Virus record (IMG/VR): IMGVR_UViG_3300042104_000044
Span: 1-23,521 of that record
DNA length: 23,521 bases
Direction: 5' to 3' (one strand)
Source of the DNA: a virus
The notes beneath the pieces were generated by a model that worked only from the letters and a program-made list of their open reading frames with translations, did no database searches and was not told where the DNA came from. The number at the start of each line of letters is the position of its first letter. Position 1 is the first letter of the stretch. This document shows, one piece after another, positions 4,929 through 20,439 of the stretch. Both the position numbers and the translations under genes were made by a program.

Positions 4929-4961
4929 GGAATAGTTTGATAGGTTTTTTAAAAGTTTGCT

Positions 4962-5075
4962 CTCTATATATAGAGGACGACATTTTACAATGTAGGTCAA
5001 GGCATCATTGGCTCGAGTGTTGTGGTGGTTTTAAGGAGTGTTGTGATAAGATACGGTAGTTGTTCTGACAGAACA
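4962..5075 (+). promoter_or_regulatory. Control region upstream of the RepL-like gene: palindrome, 21-bp-spaced direct repeats, operator-like inverted repeat
   Basis: Three ordered elements lie in this non-coding gap. The perfect palindrome CTCTATATATAGAG is at 4962-4975. The direct repeat GAGTGTTGTG occurs at 5015-5024 and 5036-5045, a spacing of 21 bp or two helical turns, so both copies face the same side of DNA. The inverted repeat TGTTCTGACAGAACA is at 5061-5075, 8 bases before the ribosome binding site AAGGAGG of the next gene. The last looks like a repressor operator and could be autoregulatory. The direct repeats could be initiator-binding sites. Roles are inferred. Confidence 0.45.
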
Positions 5076-5096
5076 CTATAACAAGGAGGGGTCATA

Positions 5097-5522
5097 GTGC
5101 TAAAAAAGTCTAGTAGAAGTATAACAATTCCAACCTTAAATTCAAGTACTGGAGAGGTTCAAAACAGAACTTTTACAGAAGATATTCAATTTAAGCAAGG
5201 AAAAAAACAAGGATGGACCACGATGTATAAGATAAATTATGATGAAGTGATGATGACACTGAAGTCAGACTTAGAAAAGAAAATCTTTTTTTTAATTAGA
5301 GATTCTTACACTAAGAGTCAGACAGAAGTCTCATTTAACAAGACAAAAATAGCTAAGAAATTTAAATCTACAAGACCAACTGTAAGCAGATTGTTTTCAA
5401 AGCTAGAAAAAATAGATTTTTTAAAAAAGACAGATGATGGTTCTTATAGAATGAATCCCTATTGTTACATTCCCTGCAAAGCAGACGGATTAATACTACA
5501 AGAAGAATGGACTGCTTTGTAA
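5097..5522 (+). CDS. RepL-like winged-helix DNA-binding protein (putative replication initiator or regulator)
   Basis: This 141-residue protein has a winged helix-turn-helix at about residues 57-125. The helix-turn-helix reads NKTKIAKKFKSTRPTVSRLF, the wing follows (LEKIDFLKKTDDGSYRMNPY), and it ends with the YRMNPYCYIP strand that is characteristic of plasmid RepL and related firmicute and phage replication proteins. It starts with GTG at 5097, 7 bases after AAGGAGG. I see no ATG that would fit better. Its position directly after palindromes and direct repeats, and before a helicase-primase, suggests initiation of replication or control of the replication operon. Other wHTH regulators cannot be excluded. 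Confidence 0.6.
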   Translation: MLKKSSRSITIPTLNSSTGEVQNRTFTEDIQFKQGKKQGWTTMYKINYDEVMMTLKSDLEKKIFFLIRDSYTKSQTEVSFNKTKIAKKFKSTRPTVSRLFSKLEKIDFLKKTDDGSYRMNPYCYIPCKADGLILQEEWTAL

Positions 5523-5804: not shown

Positions 5805-7945
5805 ACATAGAACAACAGTTAGATCTATTAGAGAAACAAGGAATGTATTATACAGACAGAAGATTATATGAATCTGCACTGTATTATTATGGTTCAATTA
5901 TTTTAAATAGCTACAACTACAGAAAGAAAAGTGGAAAGAATATTAAATATTTTGGTGTAGTATTTAGTTCATCTGGTTCTGGAAAAGATTTTAGTTTAGA
6001 TACCTGTAGGAGTTTATTTAATTTTGAATCTTATATAAGCAGAATGAACTATTGTACTACTGTAAATAATGAGATGATGGATAAGCCAGAAGATGTTGCT
6101 AAGATGTTAACTGGATTACCTAGCTCAGTTGAAGTAGCACTAGAAGGAACAAAGGAAGGTTTATTTACTATAGCTAATTCACAAGCTAACAGTGGATATG
6201 GTTCTTTAAATCTAATTAGTAGAGAAATTGGAGACATCATTGCTGGCTCTACTGAGCTAATATCTAAGCTAAAAGAATTATATGATGGTCACTATAAGGC
6301 TAAAGTAATTAAAGGCAATTCTGACTCAAGCAGAGAAACAGATATAGACAATATTGTTTGTAATATGTTTGCTGCTGGATCACAAGCTGGATTTAATGCT
6401 GAAGGTAAAGCTGAATTGCAAAAGATGGTATCGTCTGGTATGTATCGTAGAAGTTATATTATAGATATGAAACCTAATGATATTGTTGAGAATGAAGAAG
6501 ATATTTCTTTAGAGCCAGTAAAGAAATGGTATCAAGACTTACAGGCAGAAGAAGATGCTATGTTTAAACATAAGTTTGACATTGGTGGTCATACATTATT
6601 TGATCTTGAAATGACAATCGAACATGATGCTGAGGTAAGATTAAAAGAAATAGGTTCTGAACTAATTGCTAAAGCAAATGAAGATAAGTATAGTGAGCTT
6701 ATTAGAGCTGAGATAGGGTCAAAAACGATGATTGAAGACCTTAGCTATATCATTGCCTTCCTAGAAAGAAAAAACGTTTCTGTGGAGTGTGTTAATAAAG
6801 CATATATGTTCTATCAATTTACTAGAAAAACTGTAACAGATATTTTTAAAACAGTTCAACCTTATCATACAGCATATGATTTACTTAAGAGAGGAAAAGG
6901 ATTGTCTAAATCAGAAATGATTGAGCTAGATGATAATATTCCAAACGGTGTAAATAAGTTTAATGATATGGTTCCAATGTTACAAGAGCTGTGCTATAGA
7001 AAGAATGAATTATTAGTTCTACCAGCTGAACGAGTTATGGTTCCTAGATATAATATAGAGCCACTACCACTAACTACACTAGACTCTATGATTGTTTCTA
7101 CTGCATCTGGTAAATCAGAAGGTCAGTATGAGATAGCATACTTTCAAGATAATGTTCCTTTCTTTGGAGCCAATAGAAAGTCTATAGAGTATATGGTTCG
7201 TAGTCCTATTGAATCTTTTTTATTGTGTCATTTTAATGATACAGATAAGAGTAAAAAAATAGGTATTGAGATTGATCCAGAAGGTCAACAAGTTTGTGGA
7301 TATAGAAGTGAAAAATACTTTATATCTGGTGCAAATATGGTAGCTTTTGACATTGATGATGGATTAGAATTGACTAGAGCAAAGTCTTTGCTTGAGAATT
7401 ATACATATATTATTTATACTACTAGGAGCCATCAGAAAGATAAGAATGGTTTTGTTTGTGATAGATTTAGAATTATTATGCCAACGAAACAAACTTATTA
7501 TTTAGAACCAAGTCAATATAAAGAGTTCTATATTAATCTTGAGAGTAGACTGGGATTAGATGCTAATGATATACAGACTAGAAATGTTAGTAGGTTATGG
7601 TTCACCAATAAGGATGCTGAAGTTTTTGTAAATGAAGGTGAGCTATTAGATACTAGTAGTGCATTGCCAGATACAGAAAAGACAGAAGCTATACTACCTA
7701 TGCTTGAAACAGTTAATTCTTGGTTGGGCCAAGGAGAAATTGATATTAGACTAGAAGGAATTTATAAGCATTTTATTACTCAAACATCTAAAGGCGGTAG
7801 AAATGGTCAGATGTTTAAGCTAGGAAAGATGATTAAAGATTTAGGACTTGATCATAAAGAACATATATGCAGAGTTAATGCTATGTTATATGAACCATTA
7901 GGTGATCATGAGTTAGAGTTGCTATACAAAAGTGTAGCTAGATAA
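5801..7945 (+). CDS. Replicative helicase-primase fusion: P-loop ATPase (DUF3987-like) plus AEP-type primase
   Basis: This 714-residue protein combines two replication activities. The N-terminal half has a P-loop-like FSSSGSGKD at residues 55-63 and then an extended region (YGSLNLISREIGDIIAGS) typical of DUF3987-type phage helicase-like ATPases. The Walker A is degenerate: Asp replaces the usual Ser/Thr after the lysine. The C-terminal half has archaeo-eukaryotic primase landmarks: FDIDDG with D517, D519 and D520, S543-H544 in YTTRSHQK, and D554-RFRIIMP, followed by NVSRLWF. The last 60 residues (GGRNGQMFKLGKMIKDLGL, then NAMLYEPL and LYKSVAR) look like a PriCT primase C-terminal helical domain. 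Phage fusions I know of usually place the primase first; here the order is reversed. It follows the RepL-like gene in the replication block. Confidence 0.7.
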   Translation: MNIEQQLDLLEKQGMYYTDRRLYESALYYYGSIILNSYNYRKKSGKNIKYFGVVFSSSGSGKDFSLDTCRSLFNFESYISRMNYCTTVNNEMMDKPEDVAKMLTGLPSSVEVALEGTKEGLFTIANSQANSGYGSLNLISREIGDIIAGSTELISKLKELYDGHYKAKVIKGNSDSSRETDIDNIVCNMFAAGSQAGFNAEGKAELQKMVSSGMYRRSYIIDMKPNDIVENEEDISLEPVKKWYQDLQAEEDAMFKHKFDIGGHTLFDLEMTIEHDAEVRLKEIGSELIAKANEDKYSELIRAEIGSKTMIEDLSYIIAFLERKNVSVECVNKAYMFYQFTRKTVTDIFKTVQPYHTAYDLLKRGKGLSKSEMIELDDNIPNGVNKFNDMVPMLQELCYRKNELLVLPAERVMVPRYNIEPLPLTTLDSMIVSTASGKSEGQYEIAYFQDNVPFFGANRKSIEYMVRSPIESFLLCHFNDTDKSKKIGIEIDPEGQQVCGYRSEKYFISGANMVAFDIDDGLELTRAKSLLENYTYIIYTTRSHQKDKNGFVCDRFRIIMPTKQTYYLEPSQYKEFYINLESRLGLDANDIQTRNVSRLWFTNKDAEVFVNEGELLDTSSALPDTEKTEAILPMLETVNSWLGQGEIDIRLEGIYKHFITQTSKGGRNGQMFKLGKMIKDLGLDHKEHICRVNAMLYEPLGDHELELLYKSVAR

Positions 7946-7957
7946 TTATTGGCAGTC

Positions 7958-8006
7958 AATAGAGAACCTCTATTCGTAGTCAAGTGAACTATATAAGTTT
8001 AAACTT
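7958..8006 (+). promoter_or_regulatory. Inverted repeats in the gap before the Sak4-like gene
   Basis: AATAGAGAACCTCTATT (7958-7974) is a 7-bp inverted repeat with a 3-base centre. AAGTTTAAACTT (7995-8006) is a perfect 12-bp palindrome. The 104-bp gap otherwise holds only the ribosome binding site AAAGGAG before ATG 8050. The TAGAG/CTCTA half-sites match those at 1255 and 4962. Hairpin or operator; function unknown. Confidence 0.35.
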
Positions 8007-8049
8007 GAGATGTAAGTCCAATATATTTTATAAAGTATAAAGGAGTCAT

Positions 8050-9561
8050 ATGGATAACAACATAGTGTTGATTTACGGTAGTTCGGGTTCAGGTAAAAGT
8101 TCGTCATTGCGACACTTGGATTTTGATAGCACAGTACTTATCAATATCGAAGGTGAATAACTTGCCTCGCTAAATAGTGATATTTAGATGATTAGGTGTT
8201 GAAATCGGTGGACGACTCTAGTAGTTAATACCGAGCTAAGATTAAAAATGGTATACTATGGTCAGTATTGATATAAAGGATAAAAATGAAACATCAAGAA
8301 ATAACAATTATTGACGATAGAGTGCTATACTCTGTATATGAGAATGGTGAGATTTGGTCAAAAAAGAACATCATGGTTCCTGTAGGAACAAAAGGAAGGA
8401 AGTTTAGCGGAAAGTTTACGACCGTTGAGTGTGAAGACATTAGGTTAAAGACGCAAGTAAATAGCAGAGGGTATGAAAGTGTGTCTATCAAAAAGAAGAC
8501 AAAAATGATACACAGGCTTGTAGCTGAATGTTTTATTGAAAACCCAGAGTCTAAACCTTTTGTTAACCATATAGATGGAAACAAGCTAAACAACAATGCT
8601 TCCAACCTTGAATGGTGTACTAATAAGGAAAATATGAAACATGCCTTTAGAGCAGGACTACTAAACAAGAAGAGTCTTCTTAATTTAGTGAATAATTCAG
8701 CTTTGTCAATAGAGGATGTTAAATATATAAGAACCAACTATAAAGCTAGAGATAAAGATTTTGGAGGAGCTCAGTTAGCTATTCAATTTGGAGTATCAGC
8801 TGCTGCTATATCTGCAGTAGTAAAAAAGAAAACATATACAGATAGTAAATATTTTTAATAAAGTGTAACGACTATCTCCATAAGGAGAGTACTCTCAAGC
8901 GAGAGGAAGCGGCACCCATCTCAAGAAGATGAAGATATAGTCTGAACTATATGGCGACATATAGAAGTTCATTAGCGAACTGCAATGTACTAGCGACACA
9001 TTGTGAACATAATTGAAGATGCTTCCGATTAGAGGAGCCAGCAAGATGCGGCAAGAGGCACCTAAGAATCTAACGGAAGTTAAAGTAGCAATAAAAAAAG
9101 CAGTGGATGACGATAGTGTAAAAACTATAATCTTCGATTCACTAACAATGTTCGGAGATAATATATTATATCCAGAACTGGTAAGAGATGTACCTGACAG
9201 TAGATCAGGTTGGTTGGACTACAGGGATGCTATATCAGGAATGCTAGAGTATTGTAAGAAATCAGGAAAGAGTTTTATCTTTATTGCTTTAGCATCTGAT
9301 GTACTAAACGAAAAAGAAGCTGTACTAAAGACTGTACCTGCTATTCAGGGAAGTATGAAGAATAGTTTAAGTAGTCATTTTACTGTGGTTCTTAAGACAA
9401 ATGTACTTGTTGAAGATGGAGAACTTAGATATGTATTCCAAACAAACAAGACTGCAAAAGATAAAGACAATGAAGCAAAGAGTCCATTCGGATTATTTGA
9501 TGAACTGTACATTGACAATGATGTAAAGTTAGTATTTGATTCAATAGATGAATATAGGTAA
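8050..9561 (+). CDS. Sak4-like RecA-fold ATPase, intron-interrupted: join(8050..8154, 9016..9561)
   Basis: Exon 1 (8050-8154, 35 codons) encodes MDNNIVLIYGSSGSGKSSS and ends INIEG; it carries the Walker A motif. Exon 2 (9016-9561) starts KMLPIRGASKM and carries the Walker B-like KTIIFDSLT, FIFIALASD, a VVLKTNV...LRYVFQTN strand pair and the ending PFGLFDELYIDND...EYR. Joined, they give a 216-residue protein matching in length and motif order the phage AAA_24/Sak4 family of single-strand annealing or recombination ATPases. Without splicing, exon 1 stops after one further codon (GAA TAA). The exon 2 frame has no good start and no ribosome binding site: TTG 9013 is intron sequence. ATG 8050 follows AAAGGAG. 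An SSB-like gene lies downstream; Sak4 proteins are known to work with SSB. Confidence 0.85.
8249..8257 (+). promoter_or_regulatory. Extended -10 promoter element (TGGTATACT) for the intron endonuclease
   Basis: TG-G-TATACT inside the intron, just after the 5' arm of P6a and 29 bases before the endonuclease ATG. No clear -35 is present, as is common with extended -10 promoters. A separate promoter inside the intron would let the endonuclease be made without the spliced-out transcript. A similar TGGTATAAT precedes the second HNH gene at 9567-9575. Confidence 0.45.
8286..8858 (+). CDS. Intron-encoded HNH homing endonuclease
   Basis: This 190-residue protein has an HNH nuclease core: H76-R77 in KMIHRLVAECF, N94-H95-I96-D97-G98 and N107 in SNLEWCTNKENMKHAF. 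The N-terminal part (SVYENGEIWS... GYESVSIKKK) is the NUMOD4-like/beta region common in phage HNH homing enzymes. The C-terminal 50 residues (LSIEDVKYIRTNYK... QLAIQFGVSAAAISAVVK) form a helix-turn-helix that should bind the target. It would cut an intron-less copy of the Sak4-like gene near the exon junction and so spread the intron. ATG 8286 follows ATAAAGGATAAAA. The stop codon lies in the 3' arm of intron stem P6a. Confidence 0.92.
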   Translation: MKHQEITIIDDRVLYSVYENGEIWSKKNIMVPVGTKGRKFSGKFTTVECEDIRLKTQVNSRGYESVSIKKKTKMIHRLVAECFIENPESKPFVNHIDGNKLNNNASNLEWCTNKENMKHAFRAGLLNKKSLLNLVNNSALSIEDVKYIRTNYKARDKDFGGAQLAIQFGVSAAAISAVVKKKTYTDSKYF

Positions 9562-9566
9562 AGTTG

Positions 9567-9575
9567 TGGTATAAT
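9567..9575 (+). promoter_or_regulatory. Extended -10 promoter element (TGGTATAAT) for the free-standing HNH gene
   Basis: TG-G-TATAAT starts 6 bases after the stop of the Sak4-like gene and 85 bases before the HNH-AP2 start. No -35 hexamer is evident. A transcript from here would begin with an 80-base leader that includes the hairpin GTTGCT/AGCAAC (9612-9617/9627-9632). Confidence 0.5.
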
Positions 9576-9659
9576 TTCTTCATAAGTCCAGTAATATGGC
9601 AGAGACTAACAGTTGCTTGAAATTATAGCAACGAACTCTTATCTACGATAGGGGAAATT

Positions 9660-10136
9660 ATGAACAATCACAAAGAACTAGAAAGATTATTTTATTACAA
9701 AGACGGAAATCTTTACAACAGAATCCAAAGAGGTTCAGCTGGAAAAGATGTTATTGCTGGAAACTTAGCTAATAATGGATATTTTTGTATTAAAGTAAAT
9801 GGAAAGAGCTATAAAGCTCATAGGTTAATATACAAATTTCATAATCCAGAATGGAATTTATTCGATAGTGGAAAATCAAATCAGATAGACCACTTAAATA
9901 GAATAAGAGGTGACAATAGAATTGAAAACCTAAGAGTAGTGACTGCTCAAGAAAACAGTCATAATAATGGAGCAAAAGGATATTATTGGAATAAAGCTAC
10001 TGAATTGTGGCAAGCTTCAATAAGAGTAAATGGTAAAGCATCACATTTGGGTTTCTTTAAAAAAGAAGGAGATGCTAGAAAAGCATATCTTGAAAAGAAA
10101 GCTAAAGTAATTGAAGCAATTAACGAATATAAATAA
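9660..10136 (+). CDS. Free-standing HNH homing endonuclease with C-terminal AP2 DNA-binding domain
   Basis: This 158-residue protein contains an HNH core: H54-R55 in YKAHRLIYKF, D78-H79 in NQIDHLNRIRGDNRIENL, then RVVTAQENSHN. A C-terminal AP2-type domain covers about residues 107-152 (GYYWNKATELWQASIRVNGK... LGFFKKEGDARKAY). This architecture is typical of mobile phage endonucleases. It sits between two recombination genes that are both intact, so it is an intergenic insertion, not in an intron: no group I core is found around it. ATG 9660 has AGGGGAAATT in front. It has its own extended -10 promoter and a structured leader. Its target is probably the intergenic or flanking sequence of relatives lacking it. 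Confidence 0.9.
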   Translation: MNNHKELERLFYYKDGNLYNRIQRGSAGKDVIAGNLANNGYFCIKVNGKSYKAHRLIYKFHNPEWNLFDSGKSNQIDHLNRIRGDNRIENLRVVTAQENSHNNGAKGYYWNKATELWQASIRVNGKASHLGFFKKEGDARKAYLEKKAKVIEAINEYK

Positions 10137-10157: not shown

Positions 10158-10829
10158 ATGAGCAACTGGGGATTAGACACAGAATTATTAGAGAAAACAA
10201 AAAGAGATAGCGTAGCAGTAGTAGGTGGTGGATTTAAGCCATTAGATAGTGGTTCTTATAAAGTAGCTATTGATAAAATGTACATTAATAAAACAGATTC
10301 TGGAGCACAGATGATGAACTTAACATTTAAAATTAAAGATTCTGAGAAATTAATTTTTGCTAAGTACTGTACTAGATCAGGTGACGAAAAAGGAAATAAA
10401 GCTACATTTACAATATTAGCTTCACATCCAGAGTTCTTAAAGAAACAGTATGCAGTTGGTTCTGAATGTCCACTACCAGACTATAAGTTTATCACACAGT
10501 TATTTGCTGCTACTAAGTCTGAGATGATTGACAATGCACCAGAGGAAGGTATGATTAAAATTGGAGACAATACTGTATCTGCTAAAATCTTTAAGACAAT
10601 GATTGGTAAAGAGTTAACTGTATGTGGTCAAGTTCAAGAATCTGAATACAATGGTGAAGTTAGTGAGAAGTTTGTTCCAGTAGTTTACTTAGATACTGAT
10701 GGGTTAAATGCTAATGGTGATGAGATGGTTGAAAAGTTCAATAAGAAGATTGAGAAAGAACCAGTAAAAAGACTAAAACAAAAAACTGTTATAGCTAAAG
10801 CTCAATCGTATGAGGACGCTCCTTTTTAA
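10158..10829 (+). CDS. Single-stranded-DNA-binding-like protein (phage DUF669-type)
   Basis: This 223-residue protein is placed next to the Sak4-like ATPase. It has the features of phage ssDNA-binding proteins: an OB-fold-like beta-rich body (SGSYKVAIDKMYINKTDSGA, MMNLTFKIKD, LIFAKYCTRSGDEKG) and a short acidic hydrophobic tip, SYEDAPF. The tip resembles the DDDIPF end of bacterial SSB, through which SSB recruits partners. Similar phage proteins (DUF669 or SSB-like) often travel with Sak4-type recombinases. ATG 10158 follows AAGACAAGGAATTAAT. The stop overlaps the next start by one base. A function outside replication or recombination is unlikely, but the family assignment is by appearance. 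Confidence 0.65.
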   Translation: MSNWGLDTELLEKTKRDSVAVVGGGFKPLDSGSYKVAIDKMYINKTDSGAQMMNLTFKIKDSEKLIFAKYCTRSGDEKGNKATFTILASHPEFLKKQYAVGSECPLPDYKFITQLFAATKSEMIDNAPEEGMIKIGDNTVSAKIFKTMIGKELTVCGQVQESEYNGEVSEKFVPVVYLDTDGLNANGDEMVEKFNKKIEKEPVKRLKQKTVIAKAQSYEDAPF

Positions 10830-11260
10830 TGGAGTGGTTCTTTGAAGGTAATCCTGCACCGCAGGAGCTACCTTTTGCTTATGGATTTACTTACAAGATA
10901 ATCTTTAAAGATAGTGATGGTAAGAACTGGAGCTATTACGGAAAGAAGTCTTTCTATAGAGCCAAGACACAACCTCCACTGCAAGGCTATAAGAGAAAAA
11001 GAAGATCTATGGTTGAATCTGATTGGAGAACATACAATGGTTCTTCTTCTTTAAGTAAGGGCATGGAAGTTGTTAGTAAAGAGATATTGTCTCTAGCTAA
11101 TAGCATGAACCACTTGTCATACTTAGAAACTAAATTATTATTTGAGCACGATGTACTATACAATGAAGATAATTTAAATGCTAATATTGGTGGAAAGTAT
11201 TATGACAATGTAGACAGAAGAGCTGGTAAGTGGCTCAAAGTTTTTGAAGGACAATGCTAA
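10829..11260 (+). CDS. GIY-YIG/Vsr-like phage endonuclease
   Basis: This 143-residue protein has the pattern of a common phage endonuclease group: YKIIFKDSDGKNWSYYGKKS, then KRKRRSMVESDWRTYNGSSS, LSYLETKLLFEHDVLYN and the ending NANIGGKYY. The tyrosine, glycine and lysine spacing (YK-I ... YYGKK) fits a GIY-YIG-like active site, and the E in LETK and the H/D of FEHDVL are conserved in the versions I recall. It may cut branched or modified DNA during replication or recombination; the substrate is unknown. ATG 10829 shares a base with the stop of the SSB-like gene, so translation is coupled. Confidence 0.55.
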   Translation: MEWFFEGNPAPQELPFAYGFTYKIIFKDSDGKNWSYYGKKSFYRAKTQPPLQGYKRKRRSMVESDWRTYNGSSSLSKGMEVVSKEILSLANSMNHLSYLETKLLFEHDVLYNEDNLNANIGGKYYDNVDRRAGKWLKVFEGQC

Positions 11261-11577
11261 TGGAAAATATAGAATCTATAGAAAGACTAGACAATGCTAC
11301 ATCTGATCTAACTAAGGTAGCTAATGCTATAACTGAAAAGATGAAAGAGAAAGCAAGTAATGATGTTCAATCTTATAATGTTGGTGAAAGTAATTATGCT
11401 GAGAAGAATATACAACCATGGGATATATGGTCTGAGTATAAGTTAGATCCATGGAGAGCTGATATTGTTAAGAGGGTTCTTAGAACAAAAGAAGGTCAAG
11501 GTAAACTAGACTTAGAAAAGATTATACATATATGTAGATACTTGTTAGAAAAGGAATACAATGAAAGCAGTAATTAA
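11260..11577 (+). CDS. DUF3310-family small phage protein
   Basis: The C-terminal 60 residues match the DUF3310 pattern: NYAEKNIQPWDIWSEYKLDP, then WRADIVKRVLRTKEG and DLEKIIHICRYLLEK, equivalent to HY---IEPIDVI and N-IKYL-R---K-G-DL-KA--YL. The N-terminal 40 residues form a separate helix. DUF3310 proteins are widespread in tailed phages (some are annotated nucleotide kinase) but lack a proven role. ATG 11260 is preferred over ATG 11254: it stands 9 bases from GAAGG, while the other is only 3 bases away. It overlaps the previous stop by one base. Confidence 0.7.
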   Translation: MENIESIERLDNATSDLTKVANAITEKMKEKASNDVQSYNVGESNYAEKNIQPWDIWSEYKLDPWRADIVKRVLRTKEGQGKLDLEKIIHICRYLLEKEYNESSN

Positions 11578-12045: not shown

Positions 12046-12190
12046 AAAGAAAGACTATGTCAGAAAGATAGTAAAGAATGATTCTGGACAATATCTAGTT
12101 ATGATAAAGGAGGGTTTAGTAGAGGGGTGGTATATAGAAAAGGTCTTTTATACTGAAAGTAATGCTAAGGCTTACCTTAGAAGTAAATAG
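12038..12190 (+). CDS. Small 50-residue protein at the end of the plus-strand operon
   Basis: ATG 12038 lies in the last codons of the MazG-like gene, and the frame runs to TAG 12190. The protein, MSKKKDYVRKIVKNDSGQYL then VMIKEGLVEGWYIEKVFYTE, looks like a small beta sheet of three to four strands with a basic N-terminus. No family recognised. The ribosome binding site is weak (AAGGCTAACTACA), so it is probably coupled to the upstream gene. It ends 4 bases before the shared terminator hairpin. Confidence 0.5.
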   Translation: MSKKKDYVRKIVKNDSGQYLVMIKEGLVEGWYIEKVFYTESNAKAYLRSK

Positions 12191-12193
12191 ATA

Positions 12194-12217
12194 GAGGAGT
12201 AGGTTACCCTACTCTTC
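12194..12217. terminator. Bidirectional terminator between the converging operons
   Basis: GAGGAGTAGG pairs with CCTACTCTTC (one G-U pair) around a TTAC loop, a 10-bp stem. It lies exactly between the last plus-strand gene and the last minus-strand gene. The stop codon of the minus-strand gene (12209-12211) is inside the stem. The T-tracts on either side are weak (CATTTGTGTTT on the plus strand). Confidence 0.6.
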
Positions 12218-14158
12218 ATTTGTGTTTATAGAACTCATAGCCAATCCAAAAGATCTCATAAGAGTTGCTCTCAACCTTCTGTCTTCTACTTTATTTATTC
12301 TTGCTATTAATTTAGCTCTTCCTCCACTCTTTGTTATCTTGCTAATAATATTCTTTGTAGCATACATAGATGTTCTTGCTGCTAAGTAAGGTGATAACTT
12401 AACAGTAGCTCCAGCAGCAGCTAGTGCCAATACATCATCAGTCACACTTAACTCATGACCCTTAGCTCCCTTAATTGCCAATTCTATTTCATTTAAGGAG
12501 TTCATTTGAATATCTAACTTCTTAGCTTCTGATTTCCCTAGTAGTTTTACTAATCCTTTTTTATCCATAGTCGCATAATTAGATAATACTTTCCTTACTC
12601 TTTCTGGAGAGTTAATTGCATCTTCAGCTAGGTCTTTAATTAGAATATCTTGTACTATTTGTTGTTTCTGACTAGGTTTCATTTTCTTAGCAGCAGCTCC
12701 TATCTGATTTAAGTTAATCTTTCTATCTACTAACATTTCTCCTGCTTCTTCAGTATATTTCTTTTCTAATACTTTAGATACAGTAGCTCCAGCAGTAGCT
12801 TCTTCTCCTTCTTTGATAACCCCAGTATATTCAGTATTGAAGTCTTTAGATAGCTTTCTGGCTTTCTTATATATTCCAACTCCTCCTAAAGCATCCTGTT
12901 TGTCCTGAACAGACTTAATAGCTTCTCCATATATCTTTTTGTCTGAACCTATAGCTGCTCTTTGGTTAGCCTTTAAAGAAGACAAAGTATCTTCTAGGTC
13001 AGCTACAGTCTTGTTGTACTTAGGACTCAAGAAGGCTTTAATATTCTTAACAGTCTTTACTTCATCTTTTCCTCTTGGTCTATATTCAAACTTAACAGGA
13101 GTATCAACTTCAATGCTAGAAGCTACTTCCTTTGCTTCACTGTATGCATTAGTTACTTTCTGCTTGGCTACTTTTGCTTGAGCCTTAAGTCTTCTAACAA
13201 CATCTGCACTCACTTCAGTAGAAGATTTTTTCCCACTGAATACACTACTTAGAATATTATCCCTAGCTTCAGTATCCATCTTAGTTATTCCCTGTTCATC
13301 CAAGTGGTCTAATATGCTATTGATTTTCTTTTGGTCATCAATATCTAGCTTTGATATACTTTTCTTAAATGCAGTATCTATTTCATCAATAGGAACATTA
13401 GGGAAAAGTCTATTTATAATAGCTCCAGAAACTCCAGCTGTAACACCAGCAATAGCTCCAGTCTTTCCTGCTTCTTTATAGTCTTTACCTTTTCCTAGCT
13501 CAGATAAAGAAGCCATAATAAATTCTCCACCAGCAATAGTACTAATTGCTTTTAGTCTTGCCACTGGTAAGATGTTGGCTAATACTTCTCCTACAAGAGC
13601 AGAACCCTCTAGTTTTTTATCTTTTATGGCTTTCTCATTTTCGGCAATCCAAGTATCGAACTGAGAGTATTCTTCGTCTGATAAAGAAGATGCAATATCT
13701 TGCCCTACCTTACCTAGACCTAGAAGCATTCTTCCTGCTCCTCTACCCATTCCTTCTCCAGCTTCTAAGGTTCTATCTATAGGAGAAGGAGCTTCCTTCA
13801 TTTCTTTAAGAGTTTTTTTATTTCTCTCTCTTTCTATTTCATCCTTTACTGCTTTATCTTTTTTTGCTTGATAGTCTTCTTTTGCTTTAATAATAGCAAT
13901 ATCATAATACTCAGTATTGTCTGGATGTTGAGTTCTAAGTTTCTCAATCCTTGCAATAGAAGCATCAAGATGTGTTTGAGCATCTACTGTTTGTTCTTCA
14001 ATAATGTCAGCTTTAGTCTCAGTAGCTTCAATAGTCTCAGCTTCTTCAGACCATAGGTCATCTTCGTTAACCTCTGTAGCTCCTTCAGGAACAGACATCC
14101 AAGTTCCGTCCTTCATTCTGATTTCGCTAGTTCCTTCTGGTATATTTATAAATCCCAT
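12209..14158 (-). CDS. Large internal virion / DNA-ejection protein (P22 gp16-like position)
   Basis: This 649-residue protein is last in the late operon, the place where P22-like podoviruses keep their final ejection protein. It begins with two related short units, IPEGTSEIRMKDGTWMSV and PEGATEVNEDDLW. A charged helical region (about 55-120) follows, then a glycine- and alanine-rich hydrophobic stretch at about 195-260 (ANILPVARLKAISTIAGGEF, TGAIAGVTAGVSGAIINRLF) that could enter a membrane. The C-terminal half is again helical, with a second hydrophobic patch (VTDDVLALAAAGATVKLSPY). Ejection proteins leave the capsid and build a conduit through the cell envelope. No lytic domain is visible. 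Start ATG 14158 follows AAGGATAAGCAAT. Function inferred from position and composition. Confidence 0.5.
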   Translation of the reverse strand: MGFINIPEGTSEIRMKDGTWMSVPEGATEVNEDDLWSEEAETIEATETKADIIEEQTVDAQTHLDASIARIEKLRTQHPDNTEYYDIAIIKAKEDYQAKKDKAVKDEIERERNKKTLKEMKEAPSPIDRTLEAGEGMGRGAGRMLLGLGKVGQDIASSLSDEEYSQFDTWIAENEKAIKDKKLEGSALVGEVLANILPVARLKAISTIAGGEFIMASLSELGKGKDYKEAGKTGAIAGVTAGVSGAIINRLFPNVPIDEIDTAFKKSISKLDIDDQKKINSILDHLDEQGITKMDTEARDNILSSVFSGKKSSTEVSADVVRRLKAQAKVAKQKVTNAYSEAKEVASSIEVDTPVKFEYRPRGKDEVKTVKNIKAFLSPKYNKTVADLEDTLSSLKANQRAAIGSDKKIYGEAIKSVQDKQDALGGVGIYKKARKLSKDFNTEYTGVIKEGEEATAGATVSKVLEKKYTEEAGEMLVDRKINLNQIGAAAKKMKPSQKQQIVQDILIKDLAEDAINSPERVRKVLSNYATMDKKGLVKLLGKSEAKKLDIQMNSLNEIELAIKGAKGHELSVTDDVLALAAAGATVKLSPYLAARTSMYATKNIISKITKSGGRAKLIARINKVEDRRLRATLMRSFGLAMSSINTNEE

Positions 14159-14181
14159 ATTGCTTATCCTTATTTCTTTGT

Positions 14182-15546
14182 CTATCTAAAGCTACTAGAG
14201 TAGCTCTTTTGTTTCTTATATTTTAATGAATTGTTATATTCATGAGGAAGAGTATCTCTAGTCTTCTTAGCTTTTTTTATATGATACCCCTTCATTGTGT
14301 CTGTCATTGCTTTTAGAGTAGCCTTAGCTGTTGTTTCGTCTGACCAATTACCTCCATAAAACATTTTCATATATTCAGCTCTCTCCGTGTCTGATACAGT
14401 TGCTCCAGAGATAGCTTTTACAAACATTGCTTTAATAAAGCCAACCCTAGTGTTAACATCAATAGTTCCTATGATATCTTTATCTTCATCTGTTAGTCCA
14501 GTAAGAGCTTTAGCACCATGTATTACATTGTCTATAAGTCCTCTTTTATATGTTTTGCTATCTATCTTCTCTTTAACAAGAGTGTTGATGTCGTCAAGAG
14601 ATTCAATAGTAACAGCTTCAGCTCTTAGCTCATCTCTTGTCTTTGTTAGACTTGCTTCATCTTTAGTTGATACATTTCTCAAGATTTTTCTTTGAGTTGC
14701 TTTTAGTTTGTTAACTTTGTTTTTATCAGTTCCAGCAATTAAATTAATTCCTTCAGTGATAGCAGCTTCTGCTTGATCTGTGTCCATATCTTCTTTTACT
14801 GCACCTTTACCAGCAGTAGACCTAGTGGCTGTCTTCTCAATAAAGTCTGCTCTTTTCTTTTTAAATTCTTTAGGGTTTGATTCCTTTAGTCTAGCATATT
14901 CAGTGTCAAACCATCTTGTAGCTTTTTCTTCTGTTCCAAGAACAATGCTGTCTTTAATGTCTTTTGTAGCAAATACATCTTCCATACTTTGGAACTCCAT
15001 TCCTGTCTCAGAATATTCAACAGGAGATGTAACATCTTCTTTACCAGTAGCATCATCTATACTAAATATTTCTCCACCAGTCTTTTGAAATACTTTACCA
15101 TCTTTTATTGTAAGATTAGGATTATCTTTTACTTGAGCTAACTGATCATCATTTGTCCACTTACCATCAATTTCAGTATAGTTTGAATAGTCAGCAGTAG
15201 TTAGAGCTTCTGGAATCTTATAACCAAGCTTTGCAGCATTAGAACCAATCTGACTAACCATATCTCTCTTACGCTTTTGAAGTTGATTAACTTGATTCTT
15301 TCTTTCTTCTAGTGATAACTTAGAATCAGATCCTTTAATCTTAGCAATATCATCTTCTATATTCTGGAAAGCTTTAGCAGTATCAGTTCCCCACTTCACT
15401 TCCTTTGCATCATTGTCTTTCTTTTGTTGGTTTGTAGCCTTTGTATTGGCTGCTACTGTCTTGGCTCTAGCTTGTTCATTTTTATTGAATTCTTCTAGTC
15501 CTTTACCTAGTCCAGTATATAGACCACTCATAAATGCTAAACTCAT
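14182..15546 (-). CDS. Internal virion / ejection-type structural protein
   Basis: This 454-residue protein is mostly helical and charged, with no signal peptide. It starts MSLAFMSGLYTGLGKGLEEF, a short hydrophobic helix, then has a long coiled-coil candidate (about residues 20-100). The C-terminus is very basic (KAKKTRDTLPHEYNNSLKYK then KQKSYSSSFR), which suits contact with packaged DNA. It starts one base after the stop of the S74-domain gene (TAATATG) with AGGAG as ribosome binding site. Position between two ejection-type proteins suggests the same role; no homologue is recognised by sequence. Confidence 0.5.
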   Translation of the reverse strand: MSLAFMSGLYTGLGKGLEEFNKNEQARAKTVAANTKATNQQKKDNDAKEVKWGTDTAKAFQNIEDDIAKIKGSDSKLSLEERKNQVNQLQKRKRDMVSQIGSNAAKLGYKIPEALTTADYSNYTEIDGKWTNDDQLAQVKDNPNLTIKDGKVFQKTGGEIFSIDDATGKEDVTSPVEYSETGMEFQSMEDVFATKDIKDSIVLGTEEKATRWFDTEYARLKESNPKEFKKKRADFIEKTATRSTAGKGAVKEDMDTDQAEAAITEGINLIAGTDKNKVNKLKATQRKILRNVSTKDEASLTKTRDELRAEAVTIESLDDINTLVKEKIDSKTYKRGLIDNVIHGAKALTGLTDEDKDIIGTIDVNTRVGFIKAMFVKAISGATVSDTERAEYMKMFYGGNWSDETTAKATLKAMTDTMKGYHIKKAKKTRDTLPHEYNNSLKYKKQKSYSSSFR

Positions 15547-15547
15547 A

Positions 15548-16891
15548 TTACTCTCCTATTTCACTGTATAGACCAGCATAGTCAACTTTATAATATCCAT
15601 TCTCATCAGTAATAACAAACTCAGGATATATACCCATTAGTTCTTGAGCTAATACTCCATACTCTTCTTCTCCATCAACACCATACTCTTCAGCTACACT
15701 GTTCCATTTCCATGTATAGAAGTTAACTCCCTTAACTGTATCAACTAAAACAATATCATTCTTATATCTAATGTCAGACTTCAGGAATCCACCAAGTAGA
15801 GTAGATCCTCCACCAGTACCTAGACCTGCTATACCCATAGCCATACTTCCTAATCCTGCTCCAGCTTGTTGTTGCATCTTTTGTTGGTTCATTGCCCATG
15901 CATCATTCATCTGTCCCATTTGAGCTGCTGATTGTCCTGCAATCTGAGCACCTTGGCCATAACTAGAAGCTGCTTGACTTAAATAGTTTTGAGAACCAAC
16001 ATATGTACCTTGTCCTGCTGCACTTAATACTTGAAGGTTACTAATACCTTGTTGAGTATTTGCTAAATCCATTGAGTAAGCTGTTTGAGATATACCTTGT
16101 TGAGCACCATACATTTGTCCTGCAATACCAGCTTGTTGTTGATATACTCCACCAGCAGTACTCATTCCTGATTGATACTCTTGTCCAGATATTCCAAGCT
16201 TTTGCATTCTTTGTTGATCAGATAAACCAATAGCAGATAATCTTGCTTGTGTAGTTGCACTAGCTTTAGCTTGAGCCTCAGAACCATAAGCAGATAATAA
16301 TGCACTAGCTTCAACACCAGTACCAGCTAATCCTCTTCTTGCTAAGTCACCTTCAATACCTTTTCTTGCTTCTGCATATGCTGCACTAATACCAGCTTGT
16401 GCTGCTCCAGTTTCTCTTGATAAGATATCTGCTGATGCTGTACCTAGTTCTGCTTTAGTTTGAGCTAATTGATCAGCATACTCAGTACCAATAGATTTAA
16501 TGCTATCTACATAAGTTTGAGATAATCCAGTTAACTCACCTTCAAATGCATCAAAGTCTTCTTGTTGTTTAGCTACAAAAGTTTCAGTAGCTTTCTGCAT
16601 CTCTCCAGTTGAACCAACTAACACATCTCTTAATAAAGTATCTGTAGTTAAAGAACCTTCTGCAGGTCTTGTTCCTGTTAAGCTTTCTTGTAGATCAGCC
16701 ATAGCTGTTTGTGCCTCAGATGAGTCTGCATCTCTAAATACTTCTTCGTAATAAGCTCTATCTTCTAAAGCTAAGCCATGCTGCTCTTCAGCTATTACTT
16801 TAAGACTATCAAGCTGTTCTGCTTGACTATCCCATAGTGCCTTCTCTTCTGTTGTTGCTTGTCTTTGTGAGTTACTACTTCCTTTACTCAT
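15548..16891 (-). CDS. Virion protein with C-terminal peptidase S74 (intramolecular chaperone) domain
   Basis: This 447-residue protein has an N-terminal helical part (MSKGSSNSQRQATTEEKALW) and a middle rich in Ala, Gln and Gly (about 150-345; for example KGIEGDLARRGLAGTGVEAS, QQAGIAGQMYGAQQGISQTA). Such long Gln/Ala regions occur in podoviral ejection proteins. From about residue 370 it carries an S74 domain: FLKSDIRYKNDIVLVDTVKG, FYTWKWNS, EYGVLAQELMGIYPEFV and YKVDYAGL. S74 domains help trimeric spikes fold and can cut themselves off at a Ser-Asp/Asn bond, here plausibly before SDIRYKN. Their normal home is a tail fibre or spike. Start ATG 16891 follows GAAGGAG and overlaps the GNAT gene by 8 bases. 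Confidence 0.75.
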   Translation of the reverse strand: MSKGSSNSQRQATTEEKALWDSQAEQLDSLKVIAEEQHGLALEDRAYYEEVFRDADSSEAQTAMADLQESLTGTRPAEGSLTTDTLLRDVLVGSTGEMQKATETFVAKQQEDFDAFEGELTGLSQTYVDSIKSIGTEYADQLAQTKAELGTASADILSRETGAAQAGISAAYAEARKGIEGDLARRGLAGTGVEASALLSAYGSEAQAKASATTQARLSAIGLSDQQRMQKLGISGQEYQSGMSTAGGVYQQQAGIAGQMYGAQQGISQTAYSMDLANTQQGISNLQVLSAAGQGTYVGSQNYLSQAASSYGQGAQIAGQSAAQMGQMNDAWAMNQQKMQQQAGAGLGSMAMGIAGLGTGGGSTLLGGFLKSDIRYKNDIVLVDTVKGVNFYTWKWNSVAEEYGVDGEEEYGVLAQELMGIYPEFVITDENGYYKVDYAGLYSEIGE

Positions 16892-17327
16892 TCTCTACTC
16901 CTTCAAAGCTAATTAGCTTTTCTTTTAAATTAAAATGCTTCTTCATAATAGAAGCAGTACCATTCTCTATTCTACCGTTAGTTATTAATGTCATGTTTTG
17001 TTCCTTAGCATAATCACTTGTGTTCTTAAACAAAAGATAAGCTGCTTTACTATTTCTGTATTCTGGTTTAATATATGCTATTTCTGCGTTATACACAGGA
17101 GAGGTAAGACCGTTAAACTGATCTACATAAGCCAATGTATACCCAACAATGGTTTTGCCCTTGTAGGCTACTATTATGTTCTTAGAATCATTGATCCAAC
17201 TACCTACTTCTTTATAGAAGAAATACTTAGGAGATATGACTCTATCTGAGAATACTTCCTTTATAAAGTCGTAATGCATACCAACAACATCTTCATAGTC
17301 ATCTAATGTAAATCTTCTTATTTCCAT
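16884..17327 (-). CDS. GNAT-family N-acetyltransferase in the structural operon
   Basis: This 147-residue protein follows the GNAT fold. The N-terminal strand and helix are MEIRRFTLDDYEDVVGMHYD, and the central strand is NIIVAYKGKTIVGYTLAYVD. Motif A is AEIAYIKPEYRNSKAAYLLF, where acetyl-CoA binds; its usual R/Q-x-x-G-x-G/A loop is weakened to YRNSKAA. Then comes the helix YAKEQNMTLIT. These enzymes transfer acetyl groups to amines. Acetyltransferase genes between tail and ejection genes occur in several podoviruses; the target there is unknown, perhaps a virion or host protein. It starts 2 bases after the 53-residue gene with AAAGAGGTAAGA as leader. Confidence 0.75.
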   Translation of the reverse strand: MEIRRFTLDDYEDVVGMHYDFIKEVFSDRVISPKYFFYKEVGSWINDSKNIIVAYKGKTIVGYTLAYVDQFNGLTSPVYNAEIAYIKPEYRNSKAAYLLFKNTSDYAKEQNMTLITNGRIENGTASIMKKHFNLKEKLISFEGVENE

Positions 17328-17329
17328 TC

Positions 17330-17491
17330 TTACCTCTTTATACTATCTGTTATTTTATTTAGAACTTTAACTATTTGTTCAGTAGTAGCATTTGTAGGTA
17401 ACTGAGGAATCTTCTTTAATCTCTCAGCTATCTTCTCAAGGTCTCTTACTGCATCTTTAGTTGCTCTATCTTTGATTAGGTTACTTTTCAC
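17330..17491 (-). CDS. Small 53-residue helical protein, GTG start
   Basis: Starts with GTG one base after the TAA of the tail gene (TAATGTG), preceded by TAAAGG at 6 bases. The in-frame ATG alternative at 17493 would stop at once. The protein is helical and basic: VKSNLIKDRATKDAVRDLEK then IAERLKKIPQLPTNATTEQI, with a VKVLNKITDSIKR end. Two amphipathic helices joined by a proline/threonine turn fit a small oligomerising virion or scaffold-like factor. It fills the gap between two late genes with spacings of 1 and 2 bases, strong support for it being real. Confidence 0.65.
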   Translation of the reverse strand: MKSNLIKDRATKDAVRDLEKIAERLKKIPQLPTNATTEQIVKVLNKITDSIKR

Positions 17492-17492
17492 A

Positions 17493-19157
17493 TTATGCCT
17501 TTAGTTGACTGTAATTATATTTAAGTCCTCGAATCTCACTATCAGTGATTATCTCAAACTGTATATTGCTACCTATGCATCCAGCAGGTAATTTAAATCT
17601 ATTCTTGTTTGTATATACTTTTTTAGATTCACCATCAACAAATATCTCTATTGAATTAGGAGTACCATCTATTGTTACATCTCTATAGTGTTTATCAACA
17701 TTTGAACCTTCATCAGATATCTCTCCTGTCTTCCATGTTGCAGTCATAGGATTATCTGTTCCTTCTAAAGTATTAACCTTAAAGTTAGAGACATCTTCAA
17801 TAACAACATTAACTACATTTGTAGCGTAATTAATAAACAATGATCTTGAATCTGGAATATCAATAGTAGTTACATTTGAACCATTAGCAAAGTCAATAAT
17901 AAATAAACCATTAGAATATACACCATAGTATCTATCTTTATAACCGATAGAATAAGTAATTTCAAATCCTAAACCTGATGTCCATTTCTCTTCAGCATTA
18001 AAGTCTTCATATGTTAAGTTACCTACAGTAGCAAATGTATTCCAAGCAATAGATTGTTTAGTGATAACATTAATACTAGATCCATCATACATACATATAC
18101 CATTCTTTGATACCCATAGCATATAACCATCTAAGTTAGTAATAGTATCTTTATGTACACATCCTTGGTTAAATGGAAGCTTAGTAACAGTAACAGTATC
18201 TCTACTGTATCCTTCTATTTGGTATACTCCACGAACAGTAAATGCATAAATATTATTACCAAACTTACCTAGTCCAGTACATTCAGAATCTAAAGCAACA
18301 AAGTCTAATGATCCCCAGAATTCTGGTCTACCAACCTTACTGAAATAAACATACTTACCTGATGCTCCCCAGAATGTACCTAAGCTTTCAATTAGCATAT
18401 CTAATGAAGCAGGAGGTGGTGTATTATCAATAGTTGTTAGTTCTATTCGTGTTATATCAATGTCAGCAGTATTATCTCTATAGCAAGACTCTCCTGCACT
18501 ACAGATAGTCTCTGCTGGACTCAGTCCTGAAGCAATAAGGTTATAAGTAGGATTATCTCCACCTGTCCTATATATGTTCACAGTATGACCAGTTGGTATT
18601 ATGTTGTCAAATACATTATCAGAATCTACACTAATCTTAATTGACCTTTTAGCTAAAACATTAATAGTAATAGATGTTGGATGATATGTAGGAGCTGATT
18701 CAGTACCATTAGAATCTACAGAAGTAAATGCATAATAGTAAGTACCACCCATAGTTAAGTGACCATTGTCATCAGCAGTATCATTCCATTCTGCAATAGT
18801 AATATCAGTTATATTCTGTGGAGAAGCAGGAGCTTCAGCAACAATACCTGCATCTGTACCATCATATCTCATAAGACCATAAGTACCATATCCTGCATTA
18901 GACCAATATAATCTATTTGCATATTCTACATAGAATCTTTCATCTGTAGCATCTGTATTAGATATGATATTACCGCTAAAGTAATGACAGTATTTACCTG
19001 TCTTAGTTGTTTCTTCATAGCATTGAGTTAGTGGTAATAATGTTCCTGTTTCAAGGTTTACATTCTCACATTTAATACCTTCGTTTCTTCCAATTAAATG
19101 AGGACTTATCTTTGTAGATAATCCCCCTTCAAATGTTAGTAATTGCTGAATAGACAT
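17493..19157 (-). CDS. Tail stabilisation / hub protein, P22 gp10-like
   Basis: This 554-residue all-beta protein has the repeated sequence pattern of the podoviral tail protein that closes the portal vertex (P22 gp10-like, beta-propeller-type). Telling stretches are LTFEGGLSTKISPHLIGRNE near the N-terminus, ESLGTFWGASGKYVYFSKVG followed by RPEFWGSLDFV, and GKFGNNIYAFTVRGVYQIEG then GYMLWVSKNGICMYDG in the middle. An immunoglobulin-like insertion precedes them (YYYAFTSVDSNGTESAP). The C-terminus (GTPNSIEIFVDGESKKVYTN) is a further beta domain. Its place just before a GNAT gene and three ejection-type genes matches the P22-like order. ATG 19157 follows AGGGGATAATAA. Exact family not verified. 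Confidence 0.65.
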   Translation of the reverse strand: MSIQQLLTFEGGLSTKISPHLIGRNEGIKCENVNLETGTLLPLTQCYEETTKTGKYCHYFSGNIISNTDATDERFYVEYANRLYWSNAGYGTYGLMRYDGTDAGIVAEAPASPQNITDITIAEWNDTADDNGHLTMGGTYYYAFTSVDSNGTESAPTYHPTSITINVLAKRSIKISVDSDNVFDNIIPTGHTVNIYRTGGDNPTYNLIASGLSPAETICSAGESCYRDNTADIDITRIELTTIDNTPPPASLDMLIESLGTFWGASGKYVYFSKVGRPEFWGSLDFVALDSECTGLGKFGNNIYAFTVRGVYQIEGYSRDTVTVTKLPFNQGCVHKDTITNLDGYMLWVSKNGICMYDGSSINVITKQSIAWNTFATVGNLTYEDFNAEEKWTSGLGFEITYSIGYKDRYYGVYSNGLFIIDFANGSNVTTIDIPDSRSLFINYATNVVNVVIEDVSNFKVNTLEGTDNPMTATWKTGEISDEGSNVDKHYRDVTIDGTPNSIEIFVDGESKKVYTNKNRFKLPAGCIGSNIQFEIITDSEIRGLKYNYSQLKA

Positions 19158-19160
19158 TTA

Positions 19161-19985
19161 TTATCCCCTCATTATATAACATAGCTCGTAGTGAACTGGC
19201 TCTATTGTATGTGTATGGCTTACTGAGGCTGAAGTATCGCCGTGATTATGTGATGCTCCTCCACCAGTATATGATTCTGCGTCTTCAATAGCATTCCATG
19301 TACCATTGTTTCCATATGCAGATGAATTATCATAGTAGTCATTGTTTTGATAGTATCCGTGTTTTTGTTCATGCTTATGACTTGGCATTTCATTGATAGT
19401 TAATGTATGGTCTCCAGTCGTGTGATTGTGACTTCCATTGCTAGAAGTTGTTTCAGAACCACCAGTTCCCCCACTTAATGTAGAACCTTTTACAAATTTA
19501 CCAACTAAGTTAGGAGTTCCATTGTTACCATCACACAACAACCACCCAGAAGGAACATTTGTAGAATTACCAGACCACAACATAACCATACCAGAAATAA
19601 ATAAATCTGGTTTGTCTAATAAGTCATTAAAGCTAATATCTACATCAGATCCACCATTAAAACTTGCACCTGCAATAGTCCTGCTAGTCTCAAGAACTGC
19701 TGCAGTATCTGCATTACCTGTAAGATCTCCTGTAATATTACCAACAACATCACCTGTAAGTGTTCCTGTTAATCCCCCAGTAAAGGTCTTATCTCCACTA
19801 ATAGTCTGAGAGCTTACCCTATCAACAAGGTCATAAGATAAACCTTGACCGTTGTGACTTCCTTCTCCATTTACAAAATCAACTAAGTCATCTATAGTAT
19901 CACCTATATGATTGTCTGTATCTATGATCTTAGTAGATCCAATTATTTCTTTCCCTGCTGGGATACTCCATGTATATGTAGCCAT
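19161..19985 (-). CDS. Tail fibre protein with collar-type C-terminal domain
   Basis: This 274-residue protein has a short N-terminal attachment part, then a run of glycine-spaced repeats (TFTGGLTGTLTGDVVGNITG DLTGNADTA) typical of the shaft of phage fibres. It ends in a tail-collar receptor domain: SGMVMLWSGNSTNVPSGWLL CDG, then GTPNLVGKFVKGS and the histidine-rich SHNHTTGDHTLTINEMPSHK, ASHNHGDTSASVSHTHTIEP. In such proteins the His-x-His pairs bind metal along the trimer axis. Start ATG 19985 follows AAAGGAATAACA. The stop lies 3 bases before the next gene. It is probably a host-recognition or host-adhesion fibre. Confidence 0.85.
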   Translation of the reverse strand: MATYTWSIPAGKEIIGSTKIIDTDNHIGDTIDDLVDFVNGEGSHNGQGLSYDLVDRVSSQTISGDKTFTGGLTGTLTGDVVGNITGDLTGNADTAAVLETSRTIAGASFNGGSDVDISFNDLLDKPDLFISGMVMLWSGNSTNVPSGWLLCDGNNGTPNLVGKFVKGSTLSGGTGGSETTSSNGSHNHTTGDHTLTINEMPSHKHEQKHGYYQNNDYYDNSSAYGNNGTWNAIEDAESYTGGGASHNHGDTSASVSHTHTIEPVHYELCYIMRG

Positions 19986-19987
19986 TG

Positions 19988-20407
19988 TTATTCCTTTATC
20001 TCAATGTGTGGATAATCATATCCTTCATTTATATTGTATGTTAATCCAAGTTCTAAGTCAATGGACATCAGTCTAGCTTCTCTTAGAAATGCTCTGTATA
20101 CTTCTAGCCATGCTACTCTTACCTTGGGATTATTGTAATTCCAACAGTCCAAAACAGAACCATTATTGTCTATAACATAAGGAAGAATATCAACAGCATA
20201 TCCTAATTGGTGAGCAGATATATTTATAGTGCCATCTAGCTCAGATAGTCCTTCGCTGTATAGCTCCATCTGTTCTTCCTTATTTCTGAAACCACAGATA
20301 ATACTAAAGTCAACATCCGATTCACGTAAAGCCCTTTCGCATAACTCCTGCATTATTGGAGTTACATCTTTTAAATTTCTTATGCTTCCTGTTCCAAACT
20401 TAAACAT
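19988..20407 (-). CDS. Endolysin, M15 peptidase (L-alanyl-D-glutamate peptidase type)
   Basis: This 139-residue protein shows the zinc ligands of the M15/VanY family: SAHQLGYAVDI with H66 and D73, and PHIEIK with H134. CGFRNKEEQMELYSEG carries the conserved GFR entry segment, and the W100/Y104 region matches as well. It should cut the peptide stems of peptidoglycan to free progeny. The length is usual for a phage M15 endolysin without a wall-binding domain. The usual WGGDW motif before the last histidine is altered to LELGLTYNINEGYDYPH. No signal peptide is visible, so a holin is needed; membrane proteins lie directly upstream. ATG 20407 follows AAGGTGG. Confidence 0.88.
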   Translation of the reverse strand: MFKFGTGSIRNLKDVTPIMQELCERALRESDVDFSIICGFRNKEEQMELYSEGLSELDGTINISAHQLGYAVDILPYVIDNNGSVLDCWNYNNPKVRVAWLEVYRAFLREARLMSIDLELGLTYNINEGYDYPHIEIKE

Positions 20408-20439
20408 TAAATACCACCTTCACCATAAACTATCATAAC

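Follow-up and report, generated by a model that had tools for sequence, protein, structure and literature searches.

What interrupts the sak4 gene of this phage, and how could a whole Sak4 protein still be made from it? The stretch of DNA analysed here (the window) comprises the 23,521 nucleotides of IMG/VR record IMGVR_UViG_3300042104_000044. A preliminary description, made from its letters, had proposed that a group I intron carrying an HNH endonuclease gene lies at 8155-9015 and splits a gene for a Sak4-like recombination ATPase. All sak4 and intron features below lie on the plus strand.

The sak4 gene is split within an invariant motif

Exon 1 (8050-8154, 35 codons) starts at an ATG with the ribosome binding site AAGGAG on its 5' side, encodes the Walker A motif GSSGSGKS and ends with INIEG. 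Exon 2 (9016-9561, 181 codons plus stop) resumes with KMLPIRG. Once joined, the exons encode 216 residues that matched PHROG 124 across the junction (E 2e-30, residues 2-215), and the Pfam AAA_24 match was stronger with the joined protein (E 3e-14) than with exon 2 alone (1.9e-6). The predicted product of the joined exons is thus a Sak4 single-strand annealing ATPase.

The intron lies in codon phase 0 between Gly35 and Lys36. In an alignment of nine Sak4 proteins, E34, G35, K36, L38 and P39 were invariant, and the motif EGKxLP spans the junction. This alignment of the joined protein, a check that had been suggested with the original proposal, upheld the assignment to the Sak4-like ATPases. An invariant stretch of this kind is the insertion site expected of a homing element.

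Without splicing, the frame entering from exon 1 is closed by a stop after a single codon of the insert and gives a 36-residue fragment. Because of this stop, neither an unspliced nor an intein product is possible, and splicing would be required to produce Sak4, as had been supposed. Downstream lies the gene for the single-stranded DNA binding protein (SSB, 10158-10829), and the order primase-sak4-SSB is the same as in Schitoviridae. Sak4 of phage HK620 is reported to anneal DNA and to be stimulated by its own SSB (PMC5928155).

Intron-less alleles define the boundaries

Six IMG/VR contigs (L002-L007) are close relatives of the window. Four of them, L002, L003, L004 and L005, are intron-less and pass directly from 8154 to 9016, L003 differing at 8154 itself. 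Consequently, the junction is observed rather than inferred: U8154 precedes the intron, and the 861 nt of the insert end at G9015, the terminal omega-G. The edges originally given were therefore exact. The flanks of L002 are 99.7% and 99.1% identical to the window over 1.6 and 2.6 kb, respectively. When we scanned for the empty-site pattern, L002-L005 were found again and no further contigs appeared.

Besides the window, L006 and L007 carry the intron, with four differences in 861 nt; one substitution relative to the window falls at 9010. Since the sak4 intron is known from three contigs of one phage lineage, conservation inside it rests on these few differences.

The insert has the anatomy of a td-like group I intron

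All helices from P1 to P10 are present in the insert. The exon strand of P1, AGGU (8151-8154), places a U-G wobble at the 5' splice site. The internal guide CUUGCCU (8161-8167) is contiguous, as had been noticed before: its GCCU pairs with AGGU to form P1, and its CUU pairs with AAG (9016-9018) of exon 2 to form P10. The P2 hairpin CUAAAUA/UAUUUAG (8170-8187) is followed by the 5' strand of P3, GGUGUUG (8195-8201), which pairs at 7/7 positions with CGGCACC (8910-8916, the P3' strand). P4 joins 8205-8210 with 8229-8234, P5 joins 8214-8217 with 8223-8226, and P6 joins AUUAAAAAU (8241-8249) with AUUUUUAAU (8851-8859). On the 3' side are P7 (8870-8875 with 8937-8942), P7.1 (8876-8879/8884-8887), P7.2 (8892-8896/8901-8905), P8 (8917-8921/8927-8931), P9 (8947-8953/8958-8964), P9.1 (8966-8970/8977-8981) and P9.2 (8982-8988/8998-9004). 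The core helices P3-P8, including the classical P7 arm, thus bear out the group I fold that had been described.

P3, P7.2, P8 and P9.2 pair perfectly within each intron compared, and pairing falls to 59-70% when the strands are swapped between introns (59% for P3, 69% for P9.2). P3 was tabulated by hand because in td introns MAFFT places this helix one base off. The register of P6 is the same as in the HNH introns of JSF38 and RCIP0089; on its own, the AU-rich P6 of the window does not reach significance (54 of 1000 shuffles).

Next to these pairings stands a covariance model, R1, built on the aligned P7-P9.1 part of seven td-like introns from named phages, with the window excluded. In its training structure 97% of cells are paired and 16 pairs changed on both sides, values reached by 0 of 500 shuffles and 0 of six slid versions. 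R1 matched the window once, at 8867-8982 (105.6 bits, E 1e-23), which is far beyond chance. It matched L006 and L007 alike and gave no match in the intron-less L002-L005. P3, P4, P5, P6 and P9.2, which lie outside the model, are fully paired in the window.

An Rfam search with Intron_gpI (RF00028), also suggested as a check, gave a divided answer: no match at the gathering score, for which the cut-off is 50 bits, and a match of 39.2 bits (E 4.8e-8) once the threshold was opened. The RF00028 alignment is correct from P8 onward and wrong on the 5' side, where it does not follow the real P3-P6 because 573 nt of reading frame lie within L6. As the cut-off is a score convention and not a structural feature, it does not decide group I membership, and an intact phage intron that bears a reading frame can escape a curated Rfam cut-off. 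Matches to snoU36a and RAGATH-8 in the Rfam search were at chance level and were rejected. The empty sites, the R1 match and the RF00028 match below the cut-off together mark 8155-9015 as a group I intron, in agreement with the earlier proposal. P7.1 and P7.2 between P7 and P3', the presence of both P9.1 and P9.2, and the close td match place it with the td-like introns of subgroup IA2, to which the td intron belongs.

The intron encodes a predicted HNH homing endonuclease

The intron is of the mobile form: a reading frame of 190 aa (8286-8858), preceded by AAAGGA, starts in L6 and stops within the 3' strand of P6. Its product matched Pfam HNH_3 (E 7e-10), PHROG 59 (E 5e-46) and, as its sole PDB match, I-HmuI (1u3e, E 3e-10). 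The preliminary description had recognised an HNH endonuclease here, and these matches identify the predicted protein as an I-HmuI-type HNH homing endonuclease. Its relatives in viral contigs beyond the two known carriers share 33-39% identity with it, and most HNH proteins from other phages are 33-46% alike; an Rfam intron search of the longest contig record with an HNH relative gave no match.

A weak candidate extended -10 promoter, TGGTATACT (8249-8257), lies 29 nt before the reading frame. Matches to the extended -10 element TGNTATAAT were no commoner in the window than in shuffled sequence; therefore, we drew no hint about the host from them.

A model for splicing and homing

We consider it very probable, from this anatomy, that 8155-9015 is a mobile self-splicing td-like IA2 intron in sak4 whose homing is driven by the HNH endonuclease. 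Our model suggests that the transcript would fold into P1-P10, that guanosine would attack after U8154 and that exon 1 would then attack after G9015, so that the joined mRNA could be translated into the 216-residue Sak4 annealing ATPase. In homing, the HNH endonuclease would nick or cut an intron-less sak4 at the conserved GAAGGT/AAGATG, and recombination repair would copy the intron into the cut allele. The steps of this model are taken from established group I intron biology; in this locus we observed the anatomy, the empty sites, the reading frame and the patchy presence of the intron. In phage T4, homing of the td intron needs RecA or UvsX, and gp32 (PMC2988022). We infer that Sak4 and SSB would be the natural counterparts of these proteins here. 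As Sak4 probably belongs to the repair machinery of the phage itself, homing would then depend on the product of the interrupted gene.

The intron might instead be functional but less a parasite than a regulatory switch for Sak4, with splicing tied to growth or infection stage. Sak4 could not come from unspliced RNA, and co-option for regulation is known for some group I introns and homing endonucleases (review PMC3984707). Yet among nearly identical phages the intron is patchy, with three contigs that have it and four that do not, and the intact HNH gene and the possibly resistant allele L003 (below) point to a mobile element; we regard a switch as improbable.

Still less probable is that the intron is a decayed relic that no longer splices, leaving sak4 broken and its role taken over by the host. 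The Rfam score under the gathering threshold would fit decay, but no helix is broken, the guide, the terminal G and the HNH reading frame are likewise intact, the L006 and L007 copies differ from the window only at three unpaired positions and one synonymous position of the HNH reading frame, and the Sak4 exons are themselves intact and 96-100% identical to the close intron-less alleles. An insert without a ribozyme (a mere homing endonuclease gene, an intein or an IStron) has a negligible chance of being correct: free-standing HNH genes are common beside sak4 in this lineage, but an intein is excluded by the stop that immediately follows exon 1, there is no transposase and the HNH frame is the only coding-strand reading frame of at least 50 aa, and the R1 match, the structure and the precision of the empty sites refute it.

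L003 is a candidate homing-resistant allele

Over 7859-8154 and 9016-9488, the intron-less L003 differs from the window at three positions: 8154 (T to C), 9018 (G to A) and 9059. The change at 9059 is shared with L004-L007. This leaves two private changes in the ~770 nt compared, at L003 positions 3941 and 3944 (window 8154 and 9018), which flank the intron site at -1 (GGT to GGC) and +3 (AAG to AAA) and are both synonymous. They would turn the P1 wobble into a C-G pair and break P10, and they probably alter the endonuclease site while leaving the invariant protein motif untouched. The L003 state is derived, since the outgroup L005 has the letters of the window. A rough Poisson estimate for at least 2 of 18 variants falling within 3 nt of the site is 6e-4, for one allele noticed after the fact.

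We tentatively raise the possibility, which we think less likely than its opposite, that the sak4 intron and its phage hosts are engaged in an ongoing arms race, in which L003 escaped the intron through the synonymous changes at -1 and +3. If this is true, selection for homing resistance would here have a natural example, with the intron lodged in a recombination gene that its homing may need. Because these nearly isogenic phages include alleles with the intron, without it and possibly resistant to it, homing and resistance can be tested directly.

Other mobile genes around sak4

The window carries a second HNH gene (9660-10136, PHROG 99) at the extreme 3' end of sak4, within an insert (9525-10136) that is also present in L002; the site is empty in L003-L007. 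The native sak4 end, AKVIEAINEYK*, is now the end of the second HNH reading frame, and the insert has supplied sak4 with a recoded copy of its end, KLVFDSIDEYR*. Recoding of the one end and reuse of the other keep both reading frames whole. HNH genes also lie between sak4 and SSB in L006 (5641-6120), L030 (2599-3072), L031 (2198-2728) and L098 (3683-4198), and phages with this arrangement include Vibrio 1.097.O, Acinetobacter XC38 and viral contigs. Thus, the 3' end of sak4 is a repeated landing place of homing endonucleases.

Further endonuclease genes lie after SSB in L006 (6852-7244) and, in L002 (4398-4919), after the reading frame found at 11254-11577 of the window; nearly identical phages carry differing sets of these border endonuclease genes. 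At 4950-5519 the window has a cassette with a winged-helix (RepL/MarR-like) reading frame, in place of which L003, L006 and L007 have ~86 nt.

The phage and its host

The primase, Sak4 and SSB share ~25-35% identity with those of Schitoviridae, and among named phages the closest primases and Sak4 proteins belong to N4-like Schitoviridae from gamma- and alphaproteobacteria. One structural protein is instead similar to its counterparts in other podoviruses (PHROG 511). No relatives of the primase were found in host genome contigs, and relatives of the methyltransferase are scattered over many phyla, none titled Campylobacterota. A Campylobacterota host, which had been thought probable, is not supported.

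The early genes of the window are ~95-99% identical to the L006 contig. The structural blocks (window 12153-20435, L232 9626-18757) are almost without DNA similarity, and similarity resumes at 20436. The contrast of the structural block with the L006 contig is a module exchange.

Comparison with known introns

Among viral Sak4 loci, 78 of 80 were unbroken at the intron site (five of these 78 fell below our full-length criterion merely because their match started at profile position 10), and only the two known carriers were split. Sak4 matches were present in 462 named phage records, and those partial ones that we opened proved to be whole genes; Vibrio 1.025.O, 1.097.O and OLIVR1 were rejected as split candidates, as they matched from about residue 35 on, yet have whole genes. 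We found no report of an intron in Sak4 in the open literature, consistent with the earlier impression that none was known.

In N4-like phages, introns have been reported in td of pVa5 (PMC5746245) and in the DNA polymerase and the gp43 homologue of JA1 (PMC3670811). These Schitoviridae have a replication module in common with the window phage, and introns are on record for the primase, polymerase and td genes of this module. R1 matched the polymerase intron of JA-1 at 88.6 bits and, more weakly, a site adjoining its primase (33.8 bits). Unlike in the window, no interruption is present in the Sak4 genes of JA-1 and the other Schitoviridae checked. HNH reading frames with weak intron-model matches also lie directly before N4-like primase genes in L059 (262-2920), L098 (185-2853) and L114 (5271-7922), which suggests a recurrent primase intron in N4-like phages. 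In viral contigs, introns among the nearest in sequence occur in L175 (13756-13872) and L172, where the host gene, judged by eye from the flanking frames, seems to be an anaerobic ribonucleotide reductase; a 21-base core piece is common to 89 stretches.

The td introns of POP12, T6 and Bacillus KKP_4047 share the architecture of the sak4 intron, with P7.1/P7.2 and P9.1/P9.2, an identical P7 and a GAACATAATG-like 3' end, and that of Pectobacterium phage POP12 is 76% identical over 149 nt to its 3' part. They differ from it in host gene (thymidylate synthase) and guide; moreover, the POP12 intron lacks a reading frame, and the T-even td introns encode I-TevI, a GIY-YIG and not an HNH enzyme. The HNH introns of Autographiviridae and similar phages (PPWS1 RNA polymerase, JSF38, Klebsiella RCIP0089) resemble the sak4 intron in having their reading frame in L6, with its end built into the 3' strand of P6; the arrangement of stop and P6 in Vibrio phage JSF38 is particularly close, but all lie in genes other than sak4. 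The HNH core of I-HmuI, from the SPO1 DNA polymerase intron, aligned over 78 residues, though its target gene differs. T4 SegA is likewise a homing endonuclease aimed at a recombinase gene, as it lies beside uvsX and cuts this RecA-like gene (PMC2988022), but it is a free-standing GIY-YIG enzyme and no intron. Compared with these systems, the element is of a known kind, but its host gene, sak4, appears to be new; the gene of the Sak4 annealase would be a further phage DNA-metabolism gene that group I introns parasitise, here at an invariant motif.
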